DNA of 64,000 nucleotides from positions 288,899,784-288,963,783 of the forward strand of contig CM060900.1 of assembly GCA_030762935.1 (NCBI GenBank), in the 5' to 3' direction. Below, one piece after another: positions 1-15,222 of the stretch. Within the stretch, counting starts at the first letter, position 1. The number at the start of each line of letters is the position of its first letter. The notes beneath the pieces were generated by a model. That model was not told the origin of the DNA. It did not search any database and saw only the letters and a list, made by a program, of their open reading frames with translations. The position numbers and the translations under genes are program-made. Source of the DNA: Hymenopus coronatus. Taxonomy: Eukaryota > Arthropoda > Insecta > Mantodea > Hymenopodidae.

Positions 1-6
1 AGCGCT

Positions 7-696
7 GTGCCTGCTCCACCCAAGCAGACGCCGACAACCACACCCAAGCCCAGTCAACGCCGCATCACCTCCAGCAGCCCTACAAGTTCACCAGCCATCA
101 CCAACACTACACCGCAACCAGCAACAGCAGGGCCATCTGACAGCTCCATGAAGGATGCCGTTCAGGACCTTCATTCCGAGGTCATGCACATCAGCGCCCG
201 ATTGGCTCTACTGGAGGAGGCGCTGACTGCCATCACCGCCGCCATCGCCGAGACACAAAGTACAACACCACGCAGACTACACGACATTGAGGCCGGAATC
301 CAGGACCTACAGCAGATGACCACCGCAACAGCAAATGCACTAAGGACCTTCACCACCAACTACAGTTCACAACTCAACGCAGCAGCCATTCAAAAATCCC
401 TGGACGAAGGCCTCTCTAGACTGACCACCACACTAAACACCAAACTTCTGACCGGCACACCTGACACCAAACACAGCACACACACCCACAAACAGACTAT
501 AGACATCAATATCCAGACTGCACTGACATTCTCCCCTTTCATTACCCCAACACTTACAGAACTTCTTACACCACTTGACCACAGGACTCCACCACAAACC
601 AACGACCTGGACCAACCAGACGAAAATTTCCCTCCCTTAGGACACACACACAATGACAAGCCTTTATCAAGGTCAAAAAAGAAAAACACAAAATAG
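7..696 (+). CDS. Gag-like ORF1 C-terminal part, element 1
   Basis: A 229-residue open frame, probably continuing from upstream of the window, so the true start is unknown. The N-terminal 45 residues are rich in Pro, Thr and Ser. Residues about 48-125 look helical or coiled-coil (KDAVQDLHSEVMHISARLAL and the following repeat of hydrophobics). The tail is Thr/Asn-rich and basic at the end (SRSKKKNTK). The motif (K/G)DAVQDLH recurs in element 3 and KDAVDSIQQHI in element 4, each C-terminal to the zinc knuckles, so this is the region after the nucleocapsid part of Gag. The zinc knuckles themselves would lie off the left edge. Frame and homology are good; function is inferred from element 3. Confidence 0.65.
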   Translation: MPAPPKQTPTTTPKPSQRRITSSSPTSSPAITNTTPQPATAGPSDSSMKDAVQDLHSEVMHISARLALLEEALTAITAAIAETQSTTPRRLHDIEAGIQDLQQMTTATANALRTFTTNYSSQLNAAAIQKSLDEGLSRLTTTLNTKLLTGTPDTKHSTHTHKQTIDINIQTALTFSPFITPTLTELLTPLDHRTPPQTNDLDQPDENFPPLGHTHNDKPLSRSKKKNTK

Positions 697-751
697 TAAC
701 CAATAAAGAAACACCCACAACTCCCTTCAGACCTTCCTTAACTCCCCGAGT

Positions 752-779
752 GGCAGACAGGGCCTCGGTCATGTCTGTC
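752..779 (+). other. Conserved 3' UTR hairpin 1, element 1
   Basis: Arms 752-759 and 772-779 form eight pairs (core CAGACA/TGTCTG) around a 12-nt loop, GGGCCTCGGTCA. The same loop with different but still paired arms occurs in elements 2, 3 and 4. It lies about 208 nt before the poly(A). A role as the RNA site recognised by the element RT is an inference. Confidence 0.75.
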
Positions 780-849
780 ACCCGGAACCTTCTTTCTACT
801 TCTGCTGAGCTGCCGCTTAGTTCGGCCAGCAGTAAACTCCCGCACTATC

Positions 850-870
850 GAGGGTGCTCAGCGGAACCTC
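850..870 (+). other. Conserved 3' UTR hairpin 2, element 1
   Basis: GAGG at 850-853 pairs with CCTC at 867-870, enclosing the conserved core GGTGC..CAGCGG. In elements 2 and 4 the stem reads GCGG/CCGT and GCGG/CCGC, so the second pair changes from A-T to C-G on both sides. Confidence 0.55.
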
Positions 871-929
871 ACCATCCCGGAACATCTCCTGTGAACCCGT
901 AACATCCTTCCCATTCCCGCACTTCACGT

Positions 930-948
930 AATGGCGAAAGAAGCCATT
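930..948 (+). other. 3' UTR hairpin 3 of family A, element 1
   Basis: AATGGC at 930-935 pairs with GCCATT at 943-948 around a 7-nt loop. The same stem is at 9,241-9,259 in element 3, with one loop change. It is about 40 nt before the poly(A). Confidence 0.5.
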
Positions 949-986
949 CTTTCTAACTTCCAACTCTCTCTCTGTCTCCCCTTTCC

Positions 987-1015
987 AAAAAAAAAAAAAA
1001 AAAAAAAAAGCAGAT
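987..1015 (+). other. Poly(A)/GCAGAT junction 1
   Basis: A run of 23 A at 987-1009 is followed by GCAGAT (1,010-1,015), the first bases of element 2. The same arrangement is seen at 7,324, 9,298 and 11,266. Confidence 0.85.
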
Positions 1016-1609
1016 AGGGGAGGTTCGAGAGGGAGAGGCTTCGAGAGGACACTAGAGGAACCGAGGCCCAGCGGAGACCAGCTGAGATCTACGAAGGCGG
1101 GCAGCCGCGCTCCGCTTTCACAGAACCGGCGCACTCCGCTTAAAACCGACCCGGCGAGCGAGCGCTCATCGCCCGGCATCCTCTCCGAGACAGCTCCGGC
1201 GTTCTGCGAAGTAGCTCAGGCTGGGCTAGTAGTTCTACAAAAACAGTATAGCAGGGTAGAGAAACAAGGCCGCAGCCGACAGTCGTACGACTGGAACCAA
1301 GGCGCCCTAGGGCAGGTCCTCTGTTTCTCGGGCTTTTCAGCGCCCTCTAGCTGCTCTTTCTCTTTTTCTTTCTCTATTTTCCTCTATTCTATTAGTATTT
1401 AAGTACCCTTCTGGCCCCCTAGCATTAAGATAGGAGCTGATTGCTGAAGCCAGACACAAAAAGAGCGGTAGCCCAACTCCAGTCAGTGGCTCAGCAGCAG
1501 AATAGCTAGGCTTTAAAAGCTCTTCTTTCTTCCTTCTTCTTGTAGCTAGCTCTAAATTAAGTTATTTTCATACACACTTGACTCTTCCCTATCATTCACC
1601 ACCTGCATC
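1010..1609 (+). promoter_or_regulatory. 5' UTR / presumed internal promoter region of element 2
   Basis: About 600 nt without a recognisable gene, between the junction and the gag ATG at 1,610. It starts GC-rich and becomes pyrimidine-rich (about 1,340-1,400 and 1,515-1,545). Non-LTR elements normally carry an internal promoter in their 5' UTR; I see no specific promoter motif I would defend. Confidence 0.4.
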
Positions 1610-3510
1610 ATGACGAAGGTAGGCCGAAGCGATCACCCGCAGAAGCTATCCCCTTCATCTCTGTCAACCACCAAAAGGCCTTTAGTAGCCAAGGAACTGA
1701 TTATGACAAAGCGATCATCCACCACCTCATGCCGGACACGCTCATCGGCGCACAAGCAATGCACCTCACATACCACACTACCCGCTTCCGCGCCAACTGC
1801 ACCTGCTCATACTCATAAGTCACCCACTCACAAATCATCTACACACTCCTCACCCACTCATGACTCACTCACACACAGTTCATCCACTCAGCCACAAGCC
1901 GCTCACCAATCATCCTCTCATGAATCACCCACACTCACATCACCCACTCAGGAGTCACCCACACTCACATCATCCGCTCAGCCACAACCCACTCACAAAT
2001 CACCCTCTCATGAATCACCCACACTCACATCACCCACTGAAGAGCCACCCACACTCACATCATCCACTCAGCCACAAGCCACTCACAAATCACCCTCACA
2101 TGAATCACTCACACTCACATCACCCACACACACATCATCCACTAAACCACAAGCCACTCACAAATCACCCTCTCATGAATCACCCACACTCACGTCACCC
2201 TCACAGGAGCCACCCTCACCCACACCACCGACTCATCCACAAGCCGCTCATCAATCACCCTGTCATGAATCACGCACTGCACCATCACCCACTCCGCAGT
2301 CACACATCCTCATGCTCACACCAACAGCGCAAGCGTCACCTCCCAACGCTCCACAGGCGCCCTCACATGATGCGGACGTGAATGACATGAGACCCTCTCC
2401 TATACCTCAAGCACACTCACCGATACCGGAGAGCTATGGAGGCGCGGTTATGACCACACCTAACTCAAACACCAACACATTCACAGACTACAGGGTGGAT
2501 CTCGCACCTGTGTTTGTTAACAAAAGCCAGTACACACGAATACACATACTCACACAATCCTTTGACACAAAATACACACCCACACACAGGTATAGGATAC
2601 ACACCGCCCACCGCTCCGGAGACTACGCGATAAAGATGTTCTGCCTGAAGGACTACAACAAATTTGTTGAGCACCTCAGGAATGAAAGGGTACAGTATTA
2701 TCTTCTCCCACGCCCAGAAACAGGACCATTAGATATGTAATTAAAGGACTGTACGCCGAGTTCTCCGGAGCACACATAAAGCAGGCACTGGCAGACCAAC
2801 AATTTGAGGCCATCAGAGCTGTGCAAATGCGCAGAAGGACTAGGGATAGAGCCCCCCTCCCTATGTTCCTTGTGGAACTGGAGGACACCACAGAGAATAG
2901 GCGCATTAGAGGCCTCAAATACCTGGCTCACTTTAGAGTTAGAGTAGAAGACTACAGGACCGCAGAGGAGCCCAAACAATGCAAGCGTTGCCAGATGCTG
3001 TGGCACACGCACAAAGAATGTCAGGCACCCCATGAAACCTGCGCCAAATGTACAGGCCAACACCCCTCTTTTAGCTGCAGGGTTCCCCTGGAGGAACGCA
3101 GGTGCGCCCTGTGTAATGCCACAGGACACGGAGCAACTTGGCGCGGTTGCCCCAGTTACCAGGCCGCACTGAATGGGCCACGACCGAGGGAGCAGCAAAA
3201 TAAGGCCCCCCGACCCCACCGAGAACATCGCCAGAATCAGGTTGCTGCTCCCAACAACACAGAAGGGCAATGGTACGTACAGGACCGCCGCGGAAGGAAC
3301 AGACCAGCCCCCAACCAGACCCCTTCTACAGCTGAAGTAAGACGGGTAGTGCCCGACTTGTCTCCAGCTAATCAAGAGTGCACCCCAGTAGAAATAGGTA
3401 CACCACACACACACACACTGACACACCAATTCAGACACAAACAGAAACACACCAACCTCCCCCACCTGCTCACCTGCTGTAGGCTGGGAAGCCTTCAAAG
3501 AACACACTAA
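1610..3510 (+). pseudogene. ORF1 (Gag) of element 2, frameshifted
   Basis: Gag-like nucleic-acid-binding protein. The first frame (1,610-2,740) starts at ATG 1,610 and has about 270 residues rich in Ser, Thr, Pro and His. Within it a 90-bp (30-residue) unit recurs: CATGAATC is found at 1,919, 2,009, 2,099, 2,174 and 2,264. A folded segment follows (about 2,480-2,700) that resembles the domain preceding zinc knuckles in Jockey Gag proteins. Around 2,700-2,735 the reading frame shifts, and the continuation is open from before 2,821 to 3,510. That part has three knuckles: CKRC..H..C, CAKC..H..C and CALC..H..C (about 2,980-3,160). The tail is basic and Gln/Asn-rich. The frameshift could be a mutation or, less likely, programmed. 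Confidence 0.75.
1900..2290 (+). repeat. Tandem 90-bp repeats inside gag
   Basis: Degenerate copies of a 90-bp unit built from CACCCACACTCACATCA-like modules. Copy spacing by CATGAATC is 90, 90, 75 and 90 bp. All copies keep the gag frame. The second forward frame is also open here only because the repeat lacks stops. Confidence 0.75.
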
Positions 3511-4461
3511 GTGGCTCCTACAATCAATCTCCGATCCCAAATTCGACGCACTTTACCTTTTCAACTATGTCGCCAGATATCTGCACATACTCACAACCAG
3601 CATCTAGAAATGGCTCTCGCAACAACAATTAACATTCTATACTGGAACTGCAATAACCTCCGAAGAAAACGCAAAGAACTCACAGATTTCCTTACTAGGA
3701 ACTCAATCCAAGTAGCTCTACTCAATGAAAGCCATCTGAGTACAGGAGATAGGTTTACAATCCCTGGATGCAACATTTACCGTAACGATAGAAATCGCAG
3801 AGGCGGGGGAACGGCTATAGCAATACAGAGCTCCCTGACACACTACCAAAAACAAGTCCCACAACTAAACAGACTTGAAGCGACAGCGGTCAATGTGCAA
3901 TTGCACAACACGACTGTCACAATGATTGCGGCATATAACCAGCCCGGTGACATAGACACGGAGGACGTGGACGCCCTTATGAGAATGGACGCCAAAGTCA
4001 TAGCCGCAGGGGACTTTAACGCCAAGCACTTCCTATGGAACTGCAGGACTGCCAATGTGGCAGGTAACAAACTTCTGGCATATATAAATAATTCCAATAC
4101 ACTAATAACAGGACCAGAAGAACCCACATATATCCCGCGAATACAACATAATCTACCAGATATTCTGGATATTGCGTTACTAAAAGGTATAACCCACGAT
4201 ACACGGAACACAGTTATAAATGACCTCACGTCCGATCATCTGCCAGTAATACTGGAAGTTGCTGCCCCAGTATCCTTTCGGCCAGAACAGACTAGACCAA
4301 ATTACAGACTGGCAGACTGGCCCACCTTCGAAGAGGCCATTGACGCGCAAATAAGCACCGCAGCGGTCACGACGCATGAGACACAGGAGCTAGCGGTGAC
4401 AAATTACAAACGCGATACACCACGCCATAGAGCAACACGTCCCCATAAAAAGGTGTACTAG
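3511..4461 (+). CDS. Apurinic-type endonuclease domain of element 2 ORF2
   Basis: Endonuclease that nicks the target DNA for target-primed reverse transcription. The open frame runs 3,511-4,461; the first plausible Met of the domain is near 3,610. AP-endonuclease landmarks are visible in order: YWNCNNLRRKR (Asn), LLNESHL (Glu), RRGGGTAIA, AAYNQPG, AAGDFNAKH (Asp, Asn) and SDHLP (Ser-Asp-His), about residues 47-248. All catalytic positions I can recognise are kept. The frame ends at 4,461, and the RT lies in another frame from 4,472, so a frameshift near 4,380-4,470 has separated two halves of what should be one ORF2. Confidence 0.85.
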   Translation: MAPTINLRSQIRRTLPFQLCRQISAHTHNQHLEMALATTINILYWNCNNLRRKRKELTDFLTRNSIQVALLNESHLSTGDRFTIPGCNIYRNDRNRRGGGTAIAIQSSLTHYQKQVPQLNRLEATAVNVQLHNTTVTMIAAYNQPGDIDTEDVDALMRMDAKVIAAGDFNAKHFLWNCRTANVAGNKLLAYINNSNTLITGPEEPTYIPRIQHNLPDILDIALLKGITHDTRNTVINDLTSDHLPVILEVAAPVSFRPEQTRPNYRLADWPTFEEAIDAQISTAAVTTHETQELAVTNYKRDTPRHRATRPHKKVY

Positions 4462-4471
4462 GAATGTCAGG

Positions 4472-6259
4472 GTGCAATTTCCGCAAGACGTCAGGCAAAC
4501 AGTTAAAGAACGGAATAATGCCCGACGGAAATGGCAACGCAGCCGAAACTTAATTCATCGAAACCAATACGAAGAGCAAAGAATCAGGGCCAATACCCAC
4601 ATCGCCGAATATACACGCAACCAGTGGAACAATATCCTGGAAAACTTGGACCCACAGACCCAATCGGTTTGGAGGATTGCGAAATGCCTCACGCGGACAC
4701 CTACAAATATTCCACCTCTCCGCATTGAAGGCCAAATAAAGGAGACGCCCGAGGATAAAGCGGAAGCCTTTGCAGACGCGCTGGAAAATACCTTCCATCC
4801 AGACGCTCACCCCTGCGACCAAAACTTCGGGGTGGACACGGAAAGGTTGGCACTCTCCTTGCGAACAGCACAAACGCACAACAAAACTATAAAAACGAAT
4901 GCCGGGGAAATTAAATGGCTAATTATGCACCTTCCCAACCGCAAAGCACCGGGACCGGACAAAATCCCGAACGTTGTGCTCAAACACTTGCCGATGAAGG
5001 CAATAAAATTGCTTGCGGAAATATTTAATTATACCTTAGAACACGGAAGATTTCCCCTTCAGTGGAAAGAAGCAAAAATTTTGCTTTTCCCTAAGCAAAA
5101 CAAAGATCTCTCTCAGCCTACCAGCTATAGGCCTATCAGCCTTCTGAACACGATGAGTAAACTCTTGGAGAAAATTATACACAAACAACTTAACACATTC
5201 ATAGTCAAGAATAACCTATTGCTCAAGATACAGTTTGGATTTAGATCCAAACACTCCACCACTCAGCAACTATTGCGACTAACCGAAAATATTACAAGGG
5301 GTTTTAACACCAACCGCTCAACAGGAGCAGTTTTACTTGATATAGAACGCGCCTTTGACAAGGTATGGAACGCGGGCCTCATACGAAAACTAAGCACGTA
5401 TGGAGTGCAAGACTCAATGATCACCTTAATTGCAGATTACCTGAAAGGTAGGACCTTCAAAACAGCAGTAGGGGAGGCGGAGTCATCCCTCCGTCCTATC
5501 CAAGCAGGCGTACCCCAAGGAAGTATCCTAGGGCCTGTGCTGTTTAACATCTACATAAACGACCTCCCTCCACTTATCCGGGTAGAAAAATACATCTACG
5601 TCGATGACACAGCACTCGTAACACAGTCAACCCAACCATGGATCATTCACCTAAGACTCCAGAATGCTCTAAACGACCTGGTGCCGTGGCTCACGAAATG
5701 GAGGGTAAAAATTAACGCCAGAAAATGCCAAGCAATAGTTTTCACGAAGCGCCACTTGCATAGGCAAAGAAGGCATGCCCTCCCACCGCTTACCTACAGG
5801 CAAGAGCCTATCGAGTGGGGGAGCTCAGTCACTTATTTAGGGGTAAGGATGGACGAATGCTTCACGTGGAAACAACACATAAACATGGTACGAGCTAAAG
5901 CTAACGGTCAACTTAACAAACTTTATCCGATAATAAATTTAAATAGCAGCCTCAAACTTAGCATGGGGCTAACACTATATAAAACCTTGATTCGCCCAAT
6001 ATTAACATACGCCGCACCCGAATGGGGATATGCGGCCAAAACACACATAAAACGGCTACAAACAATGCAAAACCGTATACTGCGCATTATAGCTAAACTA
6101 CCAGCAGTAGCACCAACGTGGGCCCTGCATGAGGATCTCAAAATCTGCTCCATCGAGACCTACATAAAACACTTGGCATTCAACCTTTATAAACGCAAAA
6201 ACAATAACCACAACGAGCTCATTCAAAATCTAGGAAATTACGACACCGATCACGATTAG
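4472..6259 (+). CDS. Reverse transcriptase domain of element 2 ORF2 (Jockey type)
   Basis: RNA-dependent DNA polymerase, 595 residues. Landmarks in order: KAPGPDKIPN (about residue 160), SYRPISLLNTMSKLLEK, FGFRSKHSTTQQL, AVLLDIERAFDKVW, GVPQGSILGPVLFNIYINDL, the active site YVDD (5,597-5,608), and the Jockey-like C-terminal region YLGVRMD..TWKQHI and LIRPILTYAAPEWG. No RNase H domain follows. The protein is open over its full domain length, so the damage to ORF2 looks limited to the upstream frameshift. The active site reads YVDD where many Jockey enzymes have YADD or FADD. This is the only RT in the array and would be the natural helper for the gag-only neighbours. Confidence 0.9.
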   Translation: MQFPQDVRQTVKERNNARRKWQRSRNLIHRNQYEEQRIRANTHIAEYTRNQWNNILENLDPQTQSVWRIAKCLTRTPTNIPPLRIEGQIKETPEDKAEAFADALENTFHPDAHPCDQNFGVDTERLALSLRTAQTHNKTIKTNAGEIKWLIMHLPNRKAPGPDKIPNVVLKHLPMKAIKLLAEIFNYTLEHGRFPLQWKEAKILLFPKQNKDLSQPTSYRPISLLNTMSKLLEKIIHKQLNTFIVKNNLLLKIQFGFRSKHSTTQQLLRLTENITRGFNTNRSTGAVLLDIERAFDKVWNAGLIRKLSTYGVQDSMITLIADYLKGRTFKTAVGEAESSLRPIQAGVPQGSILGPVLFNIYINDLPPLIRVEKYIYVDDTALVTQSTQPWIIHLRLQNALNDLVPWLTKWRVKINARKCQAIVFTKRHLHRQRRHALPPLTYRQEPIEWGSSVTYLGVRMDECFTWKQHINMVRAKANGQLNKLYPIINLNSSLKLSMGLTLYKTLIRPILTYAAPEWGYAAKTHIKRLQTMQNRILRIIAKLPAVAPTWALHEDLKICSIETYIKHLAFNLYKRKNNNHNELIQNLGNYDTDHD

Positions 6260-7087
6260 CACCCCCGCCCACTGGCACTCTTTGGCAGAACCATCGGAAT
6301 AGGACAGCCTGAAATCAACATACAAGAATACCTGGACACCCTGATTAGGGTATAAAACCTAGATCTGGTACAGCGTAGGGCAGTGACTGCGACAATCCTT
6401 CCAGTTCCTGCCTCTCACTCACAACAAACACACACACATGCACACTCATTACAAATCTTCTTTTTCAGCAGCCCTCTAAGCCCTTGAGCTTACCCAGCCA
6501 AGGCGGTCCCTGGGGAAGAGGGCCCCCCCCCGCGAGTGGCATGGGTACGCACCTGCAATATGATAGGCAGGCAGCCAGCCACGTGCGCACTCTATACGAC
6601 AACGCTCAGAAAATGGACTATGCCTAGGGGTCTTAAAATGCCGTACACCTAAGACGGATAATATCATATATACTTTCTAACACATTTTAACGATGTCTTA
6701 CGTTGAACATAATAACTCATGTATATGTGTAACAGTATATGTAATAGTATTACTCATAAAATAGATAATAACACTTATATAAATATCACAAAGATGAAGC
6801 CTACCTAGGCGGAACCCACACAAAAGCTAAGCTTGATATAACTCTAAACATAGTATATACTCACAGATGGAGCCAAATGGCAGACCTCAACTATTACCTC
6901 ATAAAAATAAGCGATTGTAGTTTTAGGACAGACAATTAACAATAAGTTAGTTTGTTTCAGAGACGCAGCGCCAGCGTAGCAGCACCCACAAAGACCTAGC
7001 AGACTCTAGGTAGCACGATTTCCCTCCCACTCGGCCAAATAACCTACTCCTAAATTCTCCTTCATAATCTCCTGAAATTCGCCAGAG

Positions 7088-7115
7088 GGCAGGCTGGGCC
7101 TAGGCCGAGCCTGCC
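7088..7115 (+). other. Conserved 3' UTR hairpin 1, element 2
   Basis: Arms 7,088-7,095 and 7,108-7,115 (core GCAGGCT/AGCCTGC) form eight Watson-Crick pairs around a 12-nt loop, GGGCCTAGGCCG. This is the same position and loop length as in elements 1, 3 and 4, with different arm bases. Confidence 0.75.
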
Positions 7116-7178
7116 TGCCGGCACCCAATATCTCCTCTGGCGGCCGCACAGCGGGCCAGTTATTACCACCAGTACTAC

Positions 7179-7200
7179 GCGGGTGCAACAGCGGTACCGT
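7179..7200 (+). other. Conserved 3' UTR hairpin 2, element 2
   Basis: GCGG (7,179-7,182) pairs with CCGT (7,197-7,200) around the conserved GGTGC..CAGCGG core. It is 64 nt after hairpin 1. Confidence 0.5.
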
Positions 7201-7323
7201 AGAAATCCTTCTCCCTATCCACTCCAGCACCGGTGGAGGTTTTTTAGTCGGTAGGGCCACGTGGCAGAACCCGACACTCCGGACGTGCCCGGGTAGTCTA
7301 TAAGGTTGATTTTCCTCCACTCG

Positions 7324-7346
7324 AAAAAAAAAAAAAAAAAGCAGAT
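7324..7346 (+). other. Poly(A)/GCAGAT junction 2
   Basis: 17 A at 7,324-7,340, then GCAGAT at 7,341-7,346, which starts element 3. Confidence 0.85.
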
Positions 7347-7404
7347 GCGATTTGGCTGGGTACATTTTCACTGGTTTTTCGTGGCCGACGGAGGGTGGGG
7401 CAGG

Positions 7405-8682
7405 ATGACGAAGAAGAAACATCGCAACACAAGAGCAGCCGTAGCCGCTGCCCCTGCCGCCAGCTCCGCCATCCCTCCGGAAGAGCACATTGCTCTGCCG
7501 GTAACTACTCCAACGGAAGGGCCAGCGCCTCCAACTACAGCAGAATCCCGGCAGCTGCTGGTGCAACTGCCGGCACAGCAACCCACTACCGCCGCGGGCG
7601 CCTCCATCTCCCGGCAGATGTCACTGCAACTGCCGGCACCGCAACAGGCTGACGACGCAGACGACGCCGTCTTCCGACAGTTCCGAACACCATCTCCGGT
7701 ATCTCAACACCACTCCGCCGCCGACATACGCCGGCAACTGTTCGAAGAACTACCGACACCTCACTCACCGCCTCCTGTATATTCTGCCACAGCCACCCAG
7801 ACGTCGCCGCAGACTCAGTGCCTCACAACAGATCACCGTGCTAATACATCTGGGCCTCTACCACGGACTCATCCGCCGCAGACCGCCACCTTGCCAAATT
7901 TGCAGCGCATTAGCGTGGTCATCAGGGGAGTCCCCCGTGACCTCCCGATGCGCCTGCTAGCCACCGCCGCCCGCCTTTGCTGGCCTTCAGTACTGAGGGC
8001 CACAAGAATACAATCTGGGAGAGGCCCCACCCCGGTCGCCCGTCTGGAACTCGCCGACGTTGGAGACTACAAAGCGGCCTTGCGCGACGGCCTGCTCATG
8101 TTTGGGAGTCGCCTTAGCGCTGAGGCCAGCCGAGGGTCCCAACAACGTCCATGCCGCCGCTGCTGTGCATTCGGCCACCACGAAGCAACCTGCGCAGCTG
8201 AACCACGCTGCCATTACTGTGGCGCGTCTTCATTAACTGCCGAATGCACAGCACATACACTGACGAGCCGTCGCAGATACTGCGCCACCTGTAGAGGCTT
8301 CGGCCACTTTACGGGTCAGGCGCAGTGCCCAAAATACCCACGCAGCAGACATTTACAGCCGTCAGCCGCACCAGCCAACACCGCCTATACAACAGCAGCA
8401 TTGATGCCAACCATCTCCACCGCCACCACCAGCACCACTATGACTTCACGGTACCTTTGCAGCCGCGATGTACCGACCCAAGCTTCAACCACAACAGCAT
8501 CACAAAAGAAGCCAAAACCGACCACTACCACACACCAACCAAGGGAGACTGCAGCCGCTAACGACGTCGCCACAGGGGATGCCGTTCAGGACCTGCACTG
8601 TCCAGGATTTGCAACAGATCACAGCCACCACCCGAAGGGCCGTATTGAACACCACCGCAGAAATTTACAAGACCCTGGATGA
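7405..8682 (+). CDS. Gag-like protein of element 3
   Basis: A 425-residue protein from ATG 7,405 (MTKKKHRNTRAA). An in-frame ATG at 7,345 overlaps the GCAGAT junction and is less likely. The N-terminus is basic, followed by a long Pro/Thr/Gln/Ala-rich stretch. A globular segment, VVIRGVPRDLPMRLL to about ALRDGLLMFG (7,915-8,105), resembles the RNA-recognition-like domain of Gag proteins. The knuckle region is CRRCCAFGHHEATC, CHYC..H and CATCRGFGHFTGQAQC (about 8,152-8,330). After GDAVQDLH the coiled-coil seen in element 1 is missing through an internal deletion, and the protein ends early. The predicted role is binding its own RNA and targeting it to the insertion site. Confidence 0.75.
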   Translation: MTKKKHRNTRAAVAAAPAASSAIPPEEHIALPVTTPTEGPAPPTTAESRQLLVQLPAQQPTTAAGASISRQMSLQLPAPQQADDADDAVFRQFRTPSPVSQHHSAADIRRQLFEELPTPHSPPPVYSATATQTSPQTQCLTTDHRANTSGPLPRTHPPQTATLPNLQRISVVIRGVPRDLPMRLLATAARLCWPSVLRATRIQSGRGPTPVARLELADVGDYKAALRDGLLMFGSRLSAEASRGSQQRPCRRCCAFGHHEATCAAEPRCHYCGASSLTAECTAHTLTSRRRYCATCRGFGHFTGQAQCPKYPRSRHLQPSAAPANTAYTTAALMPTISTATTSTTMTSRYLCSRDVPTQASTTTASQKKPKPTTTTHQPRETAAANDVATGDAVQDLHCPGFATDHSHHPKGRIEHHRRNLQDPG

Positions 8683-8821
8683 AGGCCTCAGCCGACTCAC
8701 GCTACAGCACACTGACCGACAATCACATCACACAGACACAGACAGCAACTACGCCACGAAGGCACACACCTCCGCCCTCTTCGACTGAAAGTCACCGTGT
8801 ACCACTGACACCTCAAAGCCT

Positions 8822-8858
8822 TAGAAGAAGAAGAAGAAGAAGAAGAAGAAGAAGAAGG
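8822..8858 (+). repeat. (GAA)n microsatellite
   Basis: About eleven AGA/GAA units in the 3' UTR of element 3. The matching stretch of element 1 lacks it. Confidence 0.85.
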
Positions 8859-9067
8859 CGCAATCTGGCCCTCTTCGACGCATACGTCGAAGCCAACAAC
8901 AAAGACTACAGCAACCATGCTGTGACGTACTAACGACATACCAACTGACCTTCCCCGAACACATACCAAGCCTCAGATTTTCTTAAGGCTGGGCGAAACT
9001 AAACAACACAAATCCGTAAATAAAAGACACCCTGAACTCCCTTCAATCCCTCCTTTACTCCCCGGGG

Positions 9068-9095
9068 GGCAGTCAGGGCCTCGGTCATGGCTGTC
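9068..9095 (+). other. Conserved 3' UTR hairpin 1, element 3
   Basis: Arms 9,068-9,075 and 9,088-9,095 (core CAGTCA/TGGCTG, eight pairs with two G-U) enclose the loop GGGCCTCGGTCA. Compared with element 1, one pair has changed from A-T to T-G without opening the stem. Confidence 0.75.
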
Positions 9096-9159
9096 ACCCG
9101 GAACAACCGCTACCTATGCTGAGCCGCCAATTCGGCCAGCAGTTAACTGCCGCACTTAC

Positions 9160-9180
9160 GAGGGTGCTCAGCGGAACCTC
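9160..9180 (+). other. Conserved 3' UTR hairpin 2, element 3
   Basis: The sequence is identical to hairpin 2 of element 1 (GAGG..CCTC), 65 nt after hairpin 1. Confidence 0.5.
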
Positions 9181-9296
9181 CCTATACCTTGATATCTCCT
9201 TTGAATCCGTTACTTCCCATCCCAACACCGCACTTTACCCAATGGCGAAATAAGCCATTCTTTCTACCTTCCAACTCTCTTACTGTCTCCCCTGTC

Positions 9297-9297
<1 letters not shown>

Positions 9298-9339
<42 letters not shown>

Positions 9340-9344
9340 CAGAT
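9298..9344 (+). other. Poly(A)/GCAGAT junction 3
   Basis: 41 A at 9,298-9,338, then GCAGAT at 9,339-9,344. It is the longest of the four A tracts. Confidence 0.85.
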
Positions 9345-9411
9345 CCGAGGAGGATCTTCGTCGACTCTTACGGATGGATCTAGAGCGCTGAGGGCAGCTT
9401 TCGACGCAGGC

Positions 9412-10894
9412 ATGTCCTACCACCACACCGCCAGCAAAGAAGAGCTGGCACTGCGAACACACTGCCAGTGGGCGCTGGCGCGCCGTGCCGCCTTGCAGCG
9501 GAGCACGGACCCGCTCCCCGCCCCTCTTACAACGCCGCCTCCTGCCACGCCACCTACCGTATTGCAGCAGGTGGCTCCTCCGACAACAGACATCGCCGTC
9601 GCACCGGTACCCATTAGGAAACCGGCCCGGCCCCATCCGCCGACAGCCTCCGCCGCCGTGCCGGCACCCAACCGGGAACCGGCCCGGCCCCAACCGCCGA
9701 CTGCCTCCGCCGCCCTGCCGGAACCCAACCGGGAATCGGCCCGGCCCCAACCGCCGACAACCTACGCCGCCGTACCGGAACCCAACCGGAACCCAACCGG
9801 AACCCAACCGGAACCCAACCGGGAATCGGTCCGGCCTTCTCCGCCGCCTTCAACTTCACTCTCCGCCGTGCATGCTGCTCCGCTAGAGCAGGGCACCACT
9901 CCGACACCAAGACACCATGATGGCCATCTTACAGTGGTCGTCATAGGGGTCCCGAGGGACCTTCTATCCTGCTTCGTGCTGGATGTCGCACGCCGCCTTT
10001 GGCCCTCTGCAGTAAAGGCCAACCGCATCTCATCACCTCGGGGACCCACATCGCTGGTCCGCCTCCACCTGGGGTCCGCGCCTGAAGCCGAAACTGCCTT
10101 GACATCACGCCTGCCCCTGTTAGGGCAAGCTACGTGTCGAGGCTAGCAGAAGCGAACGTCCGGTCCCCTGCCGACGCTGCTGCACCTACGGACATCGTTC
10201 GGAGGATTGCCACGCCGCACCTAGGTGCCACTACTGTGGGGCAAGCTTGCTCACAGCCGCTTGCTCCAACCATGATCTGCGCCGTTGACGCCGCTACTGC
10301 GCTACCTGCTCCGGGAACTCGCACTACACAGGGCAAGCCACGTGCCCCCTGTATCCCCGGAGTAGGCCTTCACCTCCACAACAGACACAGCAGCACCACC
10401 AACCATCACCATCACCATCACTCAACTCTGCACCTAACACTTCACCAGACAACTCTTCACCGACGGACACCTTCCTAAAGGACGCCGTGGACTCCATCCA
10501 GCAGCACATCGCCGCCATCCAGGCGGCTACACACCAACTCGGCCTCCGTCTCGAAGAACTTCAGAGGGTAACCAACGAACTACTCGCAGCATTGGAGGTC
10601 AAGCACCAGGATTCTGATCGTGTTGCAGGTGACAATGGCGCGGTGCTTGCGTCTGTCCAGCGCCAGCTGGACCGCATAGAGAGCAACCTCGTCCATCCAC
10701 CTGCTGAGGACAGCGACGACCGGTGCCCGCAGCTGGGGTCTCTTGAGGCTTCGGACGTGGGTGTCCGAGAGCTGCAGCATCAACTACATCAATCCATATC
10801 CAAACAATTACACGGCGTTCAGACAGGACTTACCTCTGACATTCTCGCCTACATCGTTACCGGTCCAGCCCCCAGGGGAAGGAAGAACCGGTAG
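9412..10894 (+). pseudogene. Gag-like protein of element 4, frameshift and stop
   Basis: The first frame, from ATG 9,412, has a Pro-rich domain with a 60-bp repeat in three copies (9,609-9,788; unit core ARPQPPTASAAV), then a run of shorter copies. The RRM-like segment VVVIGVPRDLL..WPSAVKANRI follows, as in element 3. Near 10,135 the frame shifts, and the continuation has knuckles CRRCCTYGH, CHYCGAS and CATCSGNSHYTGQATC. One in-frame TGA lies between the knuckles (about 10,290). After that the frame is open to 10,894, with KDAVDSIQQHI and a helical C-terminal region. Two lesions suggest a dead copy. Confidence 0.75.
9609..9825 (+). repeat. 60-bp and 12-bp tandem repeats in gag of element 4
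   Basis: Three 60-bp units start near 9,609, 9,669 and 9,729. They are followed by four copies of AACCCAACCGG(A/G) between about 9,778 and 9,825. All keep the gag frame. Confidence 0.75.
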
Positions 10895-11018
10895 TACCGA
10901 AATCATCACCACAGGGAGAGAGTGGCAGCTCTCCCTGCACTCCCAATCCCTTTTTTTTCACCAACAAATCCCAACCACCCACAATTTCCTCAATTCCTCA
11001 CCTATAATTCGCTATGGG

Positions 11019-11046
11019 GGCCGGCTGGGCCTCGGTCAAGCCTGTC
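11019..11046 (+). other. Conserved 3' UTR hairpin 1, element 4
   Basis: GGCT (11,023-11,026) pairs with AGCC (11,039-11,042) around the loop GGGCCTCGGTCA. Three further pairs lie below one mismatch. Loop sequence and length are as in elements 1 and 3. Confidence 0.7.
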
Positions 11047-11110
11047 TGCTAGCAGAACCCTCTCCCCTGGCGGCCGCACAGCGGGCCAGTTTACCTTTAC
11101 CTTTGACTGC

Positions 11111-11132
11111 GCGGGTGCAACAGCGGTACCGC
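11111..11132 (+). other. Conserved 3' UTR hairpin 2, element 4
   Basis: GCGG (11,111-11,114) pairs with CCGC (11,129-11,132) around GGTGC..CAGCGG. It is 65 nt after hairpin 1. Confidence 0.5.
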
Positions 11133-11155
11133 ATCATCCTTACCTTCCAATACCG

Positions 11156-11254
11156 GTGGAGGGGTTTTTTAGTCGGTAGGCCCACTCTGGGAGACCCGGA
11201 CACTCCGGGCATGCCAGCCCGGGTTAGTCCTTAAGGTGGATTTTACCCCTCCAC
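11156..11254 (+). other. Terminal long-range stem of family B 3' UTR
   Basis: GTGGAGGGG (11,156-11,164) is complementary over nine bases to CCCCTCCAC (11,246-11,254). The equivalent in element 2 is GTGGAGG (7,233-7,239) with CCTCCAC (7,314-7,320). The stem would close the region between them just before the poly(A). Confidence 0.55.
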
Positions 11255-11265
11255 TTGAAACTAAG

Positions 11266-11289
11266 AAAAAAAAAAAAAAAAAAGCAGAC
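11266..11289 (+). other. Poly(A)/GCAGAC junction 4, right end of the array
   Basis: 18 A at 11,266-11,283, then GCAGAC. What follows is not another retroelement but the flank of the DNA polymerase relic, so this GCAGA may be the original target site. Confidence 0.75.
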
Positions 11290-11419
11290 GTATTGCGGCA
11301 GTTTGCTTTGAGTCGAGTATATTAGCTGATCTTAGTGAAAGTAACTATCAATAGTGAGAAGGACGTTACGGCGATAAAAGTTCTGGCCTTTTAATCATAC
11401 TTGGAAGTATTTATCAGAT
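11284..11419 (+). other. Flank between the array and the polymerase relic
   Basis: About 135 bp with no gene seen. It may be the upstream part of the polymerase element. Confidence 0.3.
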
Positions 11420-14400
11420 TTGAGACACGCAGAAAGCTATATTCAGCGGAATATCTGCGAACTCGACTTCTGGCTACAGTTGTATTAAGTGTGGCAAAAG
11501 CTTTCAATGGAGCTACAAGAGATGGCGTGAAATGAGCTGCGGACAACTCTTCAAATATAAAGATTGTGCTGCAACCTTCAGCAGCGGATACATAGGAATT
11601 CGTCATGAACAGCATTGCAGAGCAGGCATACCCCTGAAGGACCTACCCGACATCAACTATTGACTGCAAAGGAAAATGAGTGTGACATGAAACAGTATGA
11701 AACATCGTTTGAAGGTTGTATGAAATCCTTCATCCGATGCAATTCGAGCAAGGACATGAAGACTTACCTGCAGGAAGCTAAGCAGAAGATTATACAATCT
11801 GTCCAAGAAGAGCTCTCCATACATAAAGCTGTGAAGATTAACCTGCTAGTGGAGGGCCGATTTATAAATAGTGCTGGAGAAAGTATTGACAAGACCTTCA
11901 AAACTAGGAATCATGCACTGTTTCTAGAAACTGATTTAAATGTCATGCTGCAGACTAAAATCAAGAAACTGGATGCTGAAATGGAGGAATCACAACTTAA
12001 AGGAAGCAATTGAGCTCAGCTTGCTATGGAGGGGTTACGCCTTCGAATTAATAAGTACAGCCCCCTTCGCGGAATCAGTTATATTCCTCTACCTGCATCT
12101 ATAGAGGCAAATATAGCGTGTATGAACCCTGAGAACCGTCGTGATGAGAGATGTTTTTATACGTTATCCTTGCACAATACATTGAAAGGGATCCTCAACC
12201 TGTCAACATATACAAGAAACTCGAGGGAAAATATGACTTCTCATGCATCACATTCCCTACACCATTGTCTGAAATCCCGACATTTGAAAAGAATAATAAT
12301 ATATCTATCAACGTATTTTAGCTAGATGAAAAGGGAGCAGTGTTCACAATAAAGAATGTAACGGAAGAACCACCTGATCACCTGGGCCTCCTTCTATTGA
12401 GTGATGGAAATGGTATGCATCACTATGTAGATATCAAGAACTTTGAGAAGCTTATTCGAGAACAAAAAACAAGAAAACAAAACATAACGGACAAGTGTAC
12501 CCCTGTAAACGCTGCTTCACCCATTTTGATGACCAATATGGACGTAACGGAGTGGAAAAATTGAAGGAACTAGCGACTATCTGCAGGCACCATGCTATCG
12601 CTGGGATAGTAATGCCTAAAAAAAAAAAAAAAAAAAACTATCATTCAGTTTAAAAATGTAGAAAGAATGTTGAAACTTCCGTAAGTCATTCTTGCAGATT
12701 TTGAGAGTATTCCTAGACCAATTTACTCATGCGAGTTAAAACCTGAAGCTTCCTATACAACGTCTTATCAGAAGCATTCCCCAATGAGTTTCGCTGTTTA
12801 CGTCAAACCAGCGTTATCTGTTGAACAGTTGCAGACTGATGTTCCTACTGCCCCTTATGTATCCAGAGGATATGACGCTGCTGAAAAGTTTATGGATTAA
12901 CTAATATCTCATGCAAATAAGATTAGCAGTATATACAAAACTGCTAAACCACTGAAACTATCGGATCTACAACAGGAGGATTTCGAGTCTTCTACCGAAT
13001 GCTACTTGTGTTATAAAAAAATCACTGAAGAAAACTGGAAAGTTAGGGATCATGACCATTTGGCTGGTGAATATCGTGGAAGTCTTCATAATGAGTGTAA
13101 TCTAGCCTGCAAAACACCGAAATATGTTCCTGTCTTCATGCACAACTTAAGTGGATATGATTCTCATTTCATCGTTAAACAGTTAGGTTGTACAAGTGAA
13201 AGATTGTAGGTGATTCCGTGCTCAGAAGAAATGTATATTTCCTTCTCGAAGCATGTTGGAGATACTAAGCTTCGGTTTGTGAATGCATACCATTTCCTCA
13301 GTTCTAATTTAGATAAACTATTAAAACCTCTAACATCGTTTCCTGAGACCTGCAAATACTTTGTTGAAGAGAAAGTTAGTTTGGTGACACGAAAAGGAGT
13401 ATTTCCCTACGATTACATAACATAATATGTTTTAAGAGAAACAGGCTTACCTCCAAAGGAAGCGTTCTACAATAAACTAAATGAAGAGGAAATCAATGAA
13501 TAAGACTATCAACATGCTAAAAATGTATGGGAGCAGTTTAATATCCGAAATTAGGGAGAATATAGTGATCTCTACTTAACCTCAGATGTTCTGCTATTCG
13601 CAGATGTTTTAAAGCCTTCAGAGAGCAAACATTGAATGCTCATAAAGTTGATCCTGCACATTACTTAACATCTCCGGGGCTTACCCGGGATGCTATGCCG
13701 GGATTGAGCTAGAATTGTTATAGGATTATGAGCAGCTTCTCATGGTGGAATCTGGCATAAGGGGAGGATTATGTCAGGCATCTCACCGGTATGCCCAAGC
13801 TAACAACGCCCACATCGAGCAGCTTGATCCCAATAAACCAACTCAATTTATTACATACGAGGACGCAAATAACCAATATGGATGGACTATGCAGCATCCA
13901 CGCCTTATATAGGATTTCAGTAGGTTTTTCCTGACAGTATTAATATAGAAACATTAAAATACGATTCTTTTGGATATTTATTCGTAGCTGATGTGGATTA
14001 TCCTACTGAGCTTCATGATCTTCATAATGATTTTCCATTCTTGCCTGAGTGTTTGAAACTAAAGAACTCAAGTGTGAAGAAACTAATTGCGCACCTTGGA
14101 AGCAGAAAGAAGTACGTTGTACATTACATGACGTTAAAACAGGCACTCTCACATGGAGGGGCCGCGCCGTGGCCGAGATGGACAAAGCGGCGCAGGGGCG
14201 GGTTTTCTCCGGGTTCTCCGGTTTCCCCCGCCACCGCATTCCACCGGTGCTCCATCTTCATTTCATGTATCACCAGTGTCATCGCCTGCGGTGTCACAAG
14301 TTATAAAAGCGGGCGTTTAGCTCTATAAAAATACTCTCACATGGATTACGACTAGCAAAAAAACATCCTGTGCTGTAATTTCAACAATCGTGCTGGTTAA

Positions 14401-15222
14401 AACCTTACATAGCGTTTCATAACAACCTGCGGCAACAAGCTAGAAATGACTTTGAAAAAGACCTGTACAAAGTCTTCAACAATGGAATGTTTCGAAAAAC
14501 CATGGAGAATATACGAAATCGAATAGATAAACGAGAAAACATTGGAAAAGCTTATTGCTAAGCCTACATTCATCGATAGAAGTGTGTATGGACCTAACCC
14601 CGCAACTGTTCATATGGCATCACGACAGATCATATTCAAAAAGCCCATGAACATCGGAAAGTGCGTACTGGATATCTAAAAAACACTCATGAACTCATAC
14701 CAATATAATGTGCTATTGCCGTATTATGGGACTGCAAACCTGAAGCTTATGTACATGGATACGGATTCTTTCATTCATCGAGGCACAACTGATATATACC
14801 ACGACAAAATGCAATTTCTTGAACATTTGGATCCATCTGGTTACCCTGCAAGCCACATGTGCCAATCCACACAGAACAAAAAAGTGTTTGGAAAGTTTAA
14901 AGATGAAGCTAACGGGAAAATCGTCCAACCTTTTGTCCGCCTGAGACGTAAGATGTATGCTCTCGATATTGATGGAGAATGATCAACAAGATTAAAAGTA
15001 TAAAATGAAGCGCTATTAAGCTGTACATCACATTCGACAGTTATGTAGATTATCTTAAAAACAGCGAAATAATAAGAATTCCCCTGAATTTGATGTTTCA
15101 CAACAATATAACGTTTTGTTTGTAAAAGTCAATAGAATCACTGTATCGTCCCATGGTCATAAAAGAGTGATTGCTGAGGATGAAATATCAACCTATGCTT
15201 ATGGTCATTACAAAGTTGTGAA
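11420..15222 (+). pseudogene. Decayed protein-primed family-B DNA polymerase (Maverick/Polinton-adintovirus type)
   Basis: Replication polymerase of a large DNA transposon or endogenous DNA virus. Recognisable blocks occur in order on the plus strand in shifting frames. They are a Cys-rich N-terminal part (about 11,490-11,640), a domain ending KTRNHALFLETDLN (about 11,900), and a region with RDHDHLAGEYRG..HNECNL (about 13,045-13,110). HNLSGYDSHF follows (exonuclease motif, about 13,142), and then the polymerase active-site motif MDTDSF (about 14,757). The C-terminal block ISTYAYGHYK ends near 15,222. Many stops and several frameshifts split it, an A-run lies at 12,619-12,636, and a SINE sits at 14,158-14,332. 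I see no integrase, capsid or terminal repeats, so this is a remnant of one gene. Confidence 0.75.
14158..14332 (+). mobile_element. tRNA-derived SINE with 13-bp target duplication
   Basis: A 175-bp GC-rich insertion in the polymerase relic, flanked by perfect 13-bp repeats ACTCTCACATGGA at 14,145-14,157 and 14,333-14,345. The head (GTGGCCGAGATGG..AAAGCGGCG) resembles a tRNA-Leu/Ser A-box region. The body has GGTTTTCTCCGGGTTCTCC, and the 3' end is a short AT tail. The intact duplication dates this insertion after the polymerase gene was in place. Confidence 0.85.

Follow-up and report, generated by a model that had tools for sequence, protein, structure and literature searches.

Two hairpins in the 3' tails of gag-only and gag-pol retrotransposon units of Hymenopus coronatus, a possible basis for copying in trans

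The stretch of DNA analysed here, 64,000 nucleotides (nt) of the mantis Hymenopus coronatus (contig CM060900.1, positions 288,899,784 to 288,963,783, forward strand; hereafter the window), opens inside a head-to-tail array of units of non-LTR (non-long-terminal-repeat) retrotransposons, E1, E2, E3 and E4, of which E2 is a gag-pol unit, while E1, E3 and E4 contain gag-like open reading frames (ORFs) only, reverse transcriptase (RT) being absent. The 3' untranslated regions (3' UTRs) of all four carry two hairpins, H1 and H3. Our reading, to which we assign a probability of about 0.58, is that, through this H1+H3 tail module, RT/endonuclease proteins can work on gag-only RNAs in trans. In the mechanism we propose, H1 and H3 would make up a structured RNA module of the 3' UTRs. 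The gag-pol units (families RT-A, to which E2 belongs, RT-B and RT-C) would supply a pol protein that recognises this module, so that target-primed reverse transcription would start there, close to the poly(A) tail. The gag-only units would have acquired the same tails, and their RNAs would be passengers, copied in trans by the RT/endonuclease machine, partly at the same target site.

In the window, H1 occupies four places (z values are for folds of 46 nt):

743..788 (core 752-779), + strand: H1 of E1, loop GGGCCTCGGTCA, z -4.57; matches the model R1, built partly from this very hairpin, with 61.5 bits
7079..7124 (core 7088-7115), + strand: H1 of E2, loop GGGCCTAGGCCG, z -4.09
9059..9104 (core 9068-9095), + strand: H1 of E3, z -3.26
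11010..11055 (core 11019-11046), + strand: H1 of E4, z -1.83, the weakest of the four

All four are present where a sequence-only reading of this DNA had put them, and around a 12-nt gap 10 (E1), 9 (E2), 9 (E3) and 8 (E4) of 10 arm pairs form. Arm pairing alone is not rare, as 8 of 10 pairs are attained at 519 of the 63,968 window positions and 9 of 10 at 83; the loop pattern with at most two mismatches has 13 matches in the window against 7.4 expected, a number reached by 5 of 100 shuffles, and the exact pattern occurs at the four H1 sites only. It is their same position behind each unit, together with the copies elsewhere in the genome, that makes the four sites non-random. The details of the fold differ from those first proposed. 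What had been taken for an open loop of 12 nt folds instead into a G·A mismatch (G·G in E2), an inner helix of 3 bp (GGC/GUC or GGC/GCC) and a tetraloop, CUCG or CUAG; the four base pairs ascribed to the E4 stem do form, but a C·T mismatch lies directly beyond them; and the distance to the poly(A) tail, previously given as 208-245 nt, is 207, 208, 202 and 219 nt from the stem end, or 230-247 nt from the stem start. H1 is found just upstream of the poly(A) tail in each unit type aligned. When the whole 3' UTR is folded, E1 to E4 give z values of -2.99, -0.91, -1.02 and -0.17; only E1 beats all shuffles, and the best structure of E4 omits H1. A known RNA family was rejected, since the curated Rfam families yield no match at gathering score in the window; five matches far under the cut-off occur in 1-12000, one of them on the minus strand across the E2 hairpin.

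That the arms are under selection on RNA structure, as the sequence-only reading had it, is supported for H1 by permutation and slide controls, whereas formal covariation is weak, with a single pair. For 11 subfamily haplotypes, typed from the copies read, pairing holds at 83 of 88 arm pairs; with the 3' arms permuted the number is 67.6, and none of 20,000 permutations reaches 83, subfamily kinship staying in this control. The alignment of single copies comprises 66 distinct rows (65 distinct 46-mers without L097 and with L108 and L113, L numbers denoting loci; identical sequences removed). In it 81.2% of the cells are paired, compared with 72.4% after shuffling and 24-51% with the partner slid, and the covariation score is 0.260 against 0.136 for shuffled rows. 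No clear excess over the shuffles is seen for pairs with both partners changed (8 against 7.7) or for further pair types (30 against 27.6); as copies decay after insertion, tests on single copies are weakened. By subfamily, pair 1 is T-A or A-T, pair 4 G-C or C-G and pair 5 A-T or C-G, while pair 3 is A-T, T-A, T-G, G-C or G-T, with T·T in RT-C and in G5 and G0, two of the tail families of gag-only units. At L047, the outer stem runs unbroken for 14 bp.

The second covarying hairpin, H3, is new in this analysis. It has the form GTGC...GCGGNA closed by four pairs, and lies 64-71 nt behind the H1 core in the four window units:

850..870, + strand: H3 of E1, stem GAGG/CCTC
7179..7200, + strand: H3 of E2, stem GCGG/CCGT
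9160..9180, + strand: H3 of E3, stem GAGG/CCTC
11111..11132, + strand: H3 of E4, stem GCGG/CCGC

We find H3 in each tail family read, including an RT unit at L034 in which H1 is missing. Its stems are fully complementary in four forms, GCGG/CCGC, GAGG/CCTC, GCAG/CTGC and CAGA/TCTG, and only 1 of 24 arrangements of the arms pairs fully. Among 36 distinct rows (of 37, one overlapping L048 row having been removed), 96.8% of the cells are paired, all four outer pairs are changed on both sides in at least one row, and none of 500 shuffles, a control that is not tree-aware, reaches the covariation score. Between H1 and H3, another hairpin seems by eye to be wholly different from family to family. 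A pseudoknot between CCTCG in the H1 loop and CGAGG at H3, noted by eye in E1 and E3, was rejected, since neither the E2 loop nor those of RT-B and RT-C agree with it.

Across the 3.1 Gb of the genome, the loop word GGGCCTCGGTCA has 1118+936 = 2054 matches, against 16+8 = 24 for the reversed word. From these, 100 listed copies were read, all on two contigs, C1 and C2, and in 96 of them 6 or more of the first 8 arm pairs form; those that fail are L008, L052, one of two at L086, and L097, which has the loop word without arms and resembles a chance match. Of the 40 copies with longer flanks (L005-L044), 36 are preceded by a gag-type match in the same orientation, at no more than 1.3 kb; L008, L013, L020 and L040 are not, the last having an RT fragment there. 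Since the loop word served as bait, loop conservation among these copies is circular; copies obtained through other baits give a wider rule, about GGG[C/T/A]NNNNG[T/C]C[A/G] with rare exceptions. A search for the RT gene, in which 95 of 68,361 first-look candidates were scored, gave 96 matches, most at 89-96% (RT-A) and 24 at 80% (RT-B), and many of these matches have a long open frame. Of the RT-A copies found in this way (L108-L124), 16 of 17 have H1, which L123 has lost, and in 15 of 17 the loop is GGG[T/A]CTAGGCCA with intact arms, L124 having GGGCCTAGGCCA. H1 is present in all three RT-B copies read, with loop GGGCCCTGGTCA, and the RT-C units, found beside L014 and L015, have loop GGGCGCAAGTCA, as does E0, a further gag-only unit to the left of the window (seen in L064 and L128). 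A downstream anchor pattern matches the genome 638 times (control, 0), and 17 of 20 such stretches read contain H1, which is absent or damaged in L129, L130 and L139. As to the RT-B matches themselves, 21 share one score (804.5 bits), 16 of them with an open frame of 915 amino acids (aa); identical scores and long frames suggest recent activity. On contig C1, 33 of 46 listed loop-word matches fall in its last third, at 40-60 Mb.

Both the tree of the 3' UTRs and the gag sequences bear on how the two kinds of unit came to have similar tails. In the tree, RT-C tails group with those of G0 (support 0.999) and RT-B tails with those of G4 (support 0.880). The gag comparison, which covers E2 and the gag-only units, gives only about 24-36% identity between gag-only Gags and the E2 Gag. 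At L010, a gag that is 86% like that of G5 is followed by a G4 tail, and E0, whose gag is nearest to those of L006 (G5) and L010 (G4) at 75% over 60 residues only, has an RT-C-like tail. With the tail groups thus discordant with gag, tails seem to pass between gag lineages. Pairwise global identities of the tails, for which shuffling gives a baseline of 0.73, do not count as evidence here.

Insertion sites connect the same units. Candidate target duplications of 7-10 bp beside the gag 5' end occur at 6 of 40 gag-only loci (L009, L018, L023, L026, L031 and L033) and argue that gag-only units move as units; many other short repeats (7-8 nt, A/T-rich or far from the gag start) were judged to be chance and not counted. 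The word GCC[AG]TAA follows the A-tail in 5 of 16 RT-A, 3 of 3 RT-B and 1 of 2 RT-C/G0 tails, and in 5 of 28 G4, 1 of 16 G1/G3 and 0 of 3 unclassed tails. These rates are not comparable in detail, as each sample was chosen in its own way (first places on C1 and C2, best RT matches, anchor matches) and may include duplicated loci. At L010, L011, L074, L093, L105, L112, L113 and L127, units sit, to within one base, in one site of one repeat, whose unoccupied form is seen at L009 and L014; L106, L134 and L142 add GCC[AG]TAA insertions. The preferred site resembles GCC[AG]TAATATC[TA]C[GA]CGAACCAATC in a dispersed repeat, its users being RT-A, RT-B, RT-C and gag-only units. A possible second common site, TGC[TC]ATAAATA after the A-tail, was noticed behind G4 and G0 tails (L015, L079, L143 and L145).

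The arrays mix both kinds of unit, and a gag-only 5' end directly follows an RT unit in L109, L118 and L126 by pattern and in L117, L122 and L123 by eye, among 20 RT units read. At the junctions of the window array stand short words:

1010..1015, + strand: GCAGAT, E1/E2 junction
7341, + strand: GCAGAT
9339, + strand: GCAGAT
11284, + strand: GCAGAC

With GCAGAT at the E0/E1 junction (L064:1025), the window array has five GCAGAT/GCAGAC junctions in total. In the L034 array, CAGCTTCTT stands at two junctions and CTATAGG at the next, behind the third unit; in the L014 array (L014/L105), GCCATAATATCTC is found at both. Junction words thus seem for the most part to stay the same inside an array but not from one array to the next, the pattern expected of a target duplication that is used again. 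Two places do not fit, the last junction of L034 and the left edge of the window array, which has no GCAGAT at the E0 gag start, a GCAGAT 330 nt upstream being possibly due to chance. Template jumping as the origin of the arrays is disfavoured by junction words that are fixed per array and vary among arrays.

What can be concluded about the machinery that copies these units? The suggestion of the sequence-only reading that the hairpin may serve as a tag, through which a single RT would copy all units, is consistent with the sharing of tails, the common insertion site and the mixed arrays, but not as regards a single enzyme: at least three RT families, RT-A, RT-B and RT-C, each have their own H1 variants. 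Nor can H1 be the sole tag; it is at most part of it, given the L034 RT unit, which has no H1, retains H3 and sits in an array with hairpin-bearing gag-only units. Recognition of the tail by pol is the simplest account of similar tails, a common insertion site and common arrays. We infer that it is pol that reads the hairpins, rather than Gag or a protein of the host, and that copying needs this reading.

Several observations weigh against this account. None of the RT units read carries a G5 tail, G5 being the most frequent family in the loop-word sample and having a T·T mismatch in the stem. G5 also uses the GCC[AG]TAA site in 0 of 42 cases (Fisher's test: G4 against G5, p=0.008; RT units, at 9 of 20 with the RT-C match included, against G5, p=8e-6), and may be served by another machine. 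G6 (L107) keeps a long stem, but its inner helix is lost and its loop is 7 nt. A model search finds no H1 in the L034 RT unit, a single copy that stands at 49-62% to E2. In the covariation test that had been proposed for the hairpin, only pair 19-32 is significant (E=0.04); the null was tree-aware and kept the substitutions per branch (63 rows, 3 of the 66 being left out for short downstream sequence; 200 replicates; an R-scape-like script, not R-scape). RNAalifold gives the inner 3 pairs only on the H1 alignment. Finally, these data do not separate binding by RT from binding by a host protein.

Four competing explanations were weighed. An unlikely one is that H1 is a Gag-binding or packaging signal, RT following through Gag-Gag contact as suggested for the Gags of HeT-A and TART, which co-localise (PMC4700185). 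Such a signal would fit the gag-type frames that precede H1 in 36 of 40 copies, but the module is common to units whose Gags are only about 24-36% alike to that of E2, and the tail type departs from the gag tree. A role of H1 and H3 for the host cell only, in RNA stability, export or 3'-end formation of element transcripts, agrees with their location just upstream of the poly(A) tail in each unit type aligned; we consider it improbable, as by itself it leaves the grouping of tails with RT families and the common insertion site unexplained.

More doubtful still is the absence of any structural selection, with arms alike by common descent and paired changes arising by chance. While the one pair left by the tree-aware null, the few independent lineages and whole-UTR folds of E2-E4 near those of shuffles would agree with it, the slide and permutation controls, the four fully complementary H3 stems and the unbroken 14-bp stem of L047 would not. 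The least credible alternative, to our minds a very remote one, is a role at the DNA level, in which the 3' UTR is the promoter for the next unit in the array, as in HeT-A (PMC4700185, PMC5537684). Head-to-tail arrays and the HeT-A precedent recommend it; however, the changes compensate as base pairs, and in the 1-1.5 kb seen behind each of 40 loop-word copies, a matched unit on the same strand follows in no more than 7.

Tail recognition by pol, the account we prefer, has precedents. In stringent pairs of long and short interspersed nuclear elements (LINEs and SINEs), such as UnaL2, ZfL2-1 and ZfL2-2, the LINE protein recognises a stem-loop in the tail and moves the partner (PMC4176376). Here as there, the 3' tail, with a conserved 3'-UTR stem-loop, is common to autonomous and dependent units, but the partners, instead of being SINEs, encode their Gag and have poly(A) ends, and the RT here resembles that of Jockey. 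In SART1, of the R1 clade, and R2, 3'-UTR hairpins are needed for copying, and SART1 proteins act in trans on foreign RNA that has the SART1 3' UTR and a poly(A) tail (PMC7265360, PMC5135761). By analogy, the 3'-UTR hairpins present here may have a role in copying, although clades and sequences are other ones, SART1 targets TTAGG repeats and the partners here are gag-only. HeT-A is itself gag-only and depends on the RT of another element, and it has conserved regions in common with TAHRE (PMC4700185, PMC5537684). Gag-only units without RT in mixed head-to-tail arrays recall HeT-A with TART and TAHRE; our array, in contrast, lies inside a chromosome-size contig, and the copies are scattered and show candidate target duplications as well as a preferred site. 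Array junction words and the candidate target duplications of gag-only units do not fit a HeT-A-like attachment without target duplication. In openly licensed papers, we found no report of such a system under Jockey 3'-UTR hairpins, gag-only LINEs or re-used target sites, which does not prove its absence in print. HAL1 (half-L1), an L1 derivative of mammals, is likewise an ORF1-only non-LTR unit. The gag-only units here, for their part, are not recent deletions of E2, their Gags being too far from that of E2.

Template choice by LINE proteins and the persistence of gag-only units are open questions for poly(A)-tailed LINEs. The approximately 2000 places of the H1 loop word, with several hairpin variants, long-frame RT families and partners with the same tails and insertion site, are a natural set in which tail recognition versus cis-preference is directly testable, and the system offers a non-telomeric counterpart of the dependence of HeT-A on a foreign RT. 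Tentatively, and with some doubt, we can picture a non-telomeric guild, in which several gag-only families use a common set of Jockey-like RT/endonucleases via an exchangeable H1+H3 tail, the swapped tail rather than the protein lineage picking machine and target site. If true, labour would be divided here as between HeT-A and TAHRE, yet away from telomeres, and the LINE would be one of the stringent type that has a poly(A) tail.

The units of the array in the window are as follows:

1..1009, + strand: E1, gag-only, 3' part (the 5' part is left of the window, in L064); ORF 148-696, no RT downstream, A-tail 987-1009, then GCAGAT
1010..7340, + strand: E2, gag-pol, family RT-A; Pfam PRE_C2HC, Exo_endo_phos_2 and RVT_1
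1610-2740 and 2827-3510, + strand: gag pieces of E2
3610-4461, + strand: endonuclease of E2
4925-6259, + strand: RT of E2
7341..9338, + strand: E3, gag-only; ORF 7345-8682, A-tail 9298-9338
9339..11283, + strand: E4, gag-only; ORF 9412-10146, further gag-like frame to about 10891, A-tail 11266-11283

E2 has the features of the Jockey clade, an APE-type endonuclease with RT, and a gag with PRE_C2HC/zinc fingers (PF14529, PF03372, PF00078, PF07530). The named proteins among the best relatives of its RT, by similarity, are from Ranatra (48%) and 'mobile element jockey' proteins (41%), for which we call it insect-like. The window copy is broken, with 619 aa open around the RT against 948 aa in many other copies; its gag and pol frames are interrupted at 2740-2827 and 4461-4925, and longer frames, of 915-948 aa, occur in copies elsewhere. 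A Pfam search with the ORFs of E1, E3 and E4 gave no family match, and no homologue of the E3 Gag was found at E<=0.001 among the candidates scored from a set of 5.8 billion proteins. In GTDB and in viral contigs, 62 and 6 stretches, respectively, fit the pattern for RT relatives, none of them encoding one; matches of viral contigs to the hairpin words (four loci) lie in DNA that is GC-rich and coding-looking by eye, and were taken as chance. The genome comprises 3.127 Gb in 384 contigs. The contig of the window measures 545.7 Mb and the window stands at 288.9 Mb, not at a contig end; for this position a telomeric nature of the array was rejected, and copies occur on many contigs and positions. 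To the right of the array, inspection by eye suggests a decayed gene for DNA polymerase B, from an element of the Polinton/Maverick type, at 11290-15000 and, at 14160-14340, a GC-rich insert similar to a SINE derived from a tRNA.

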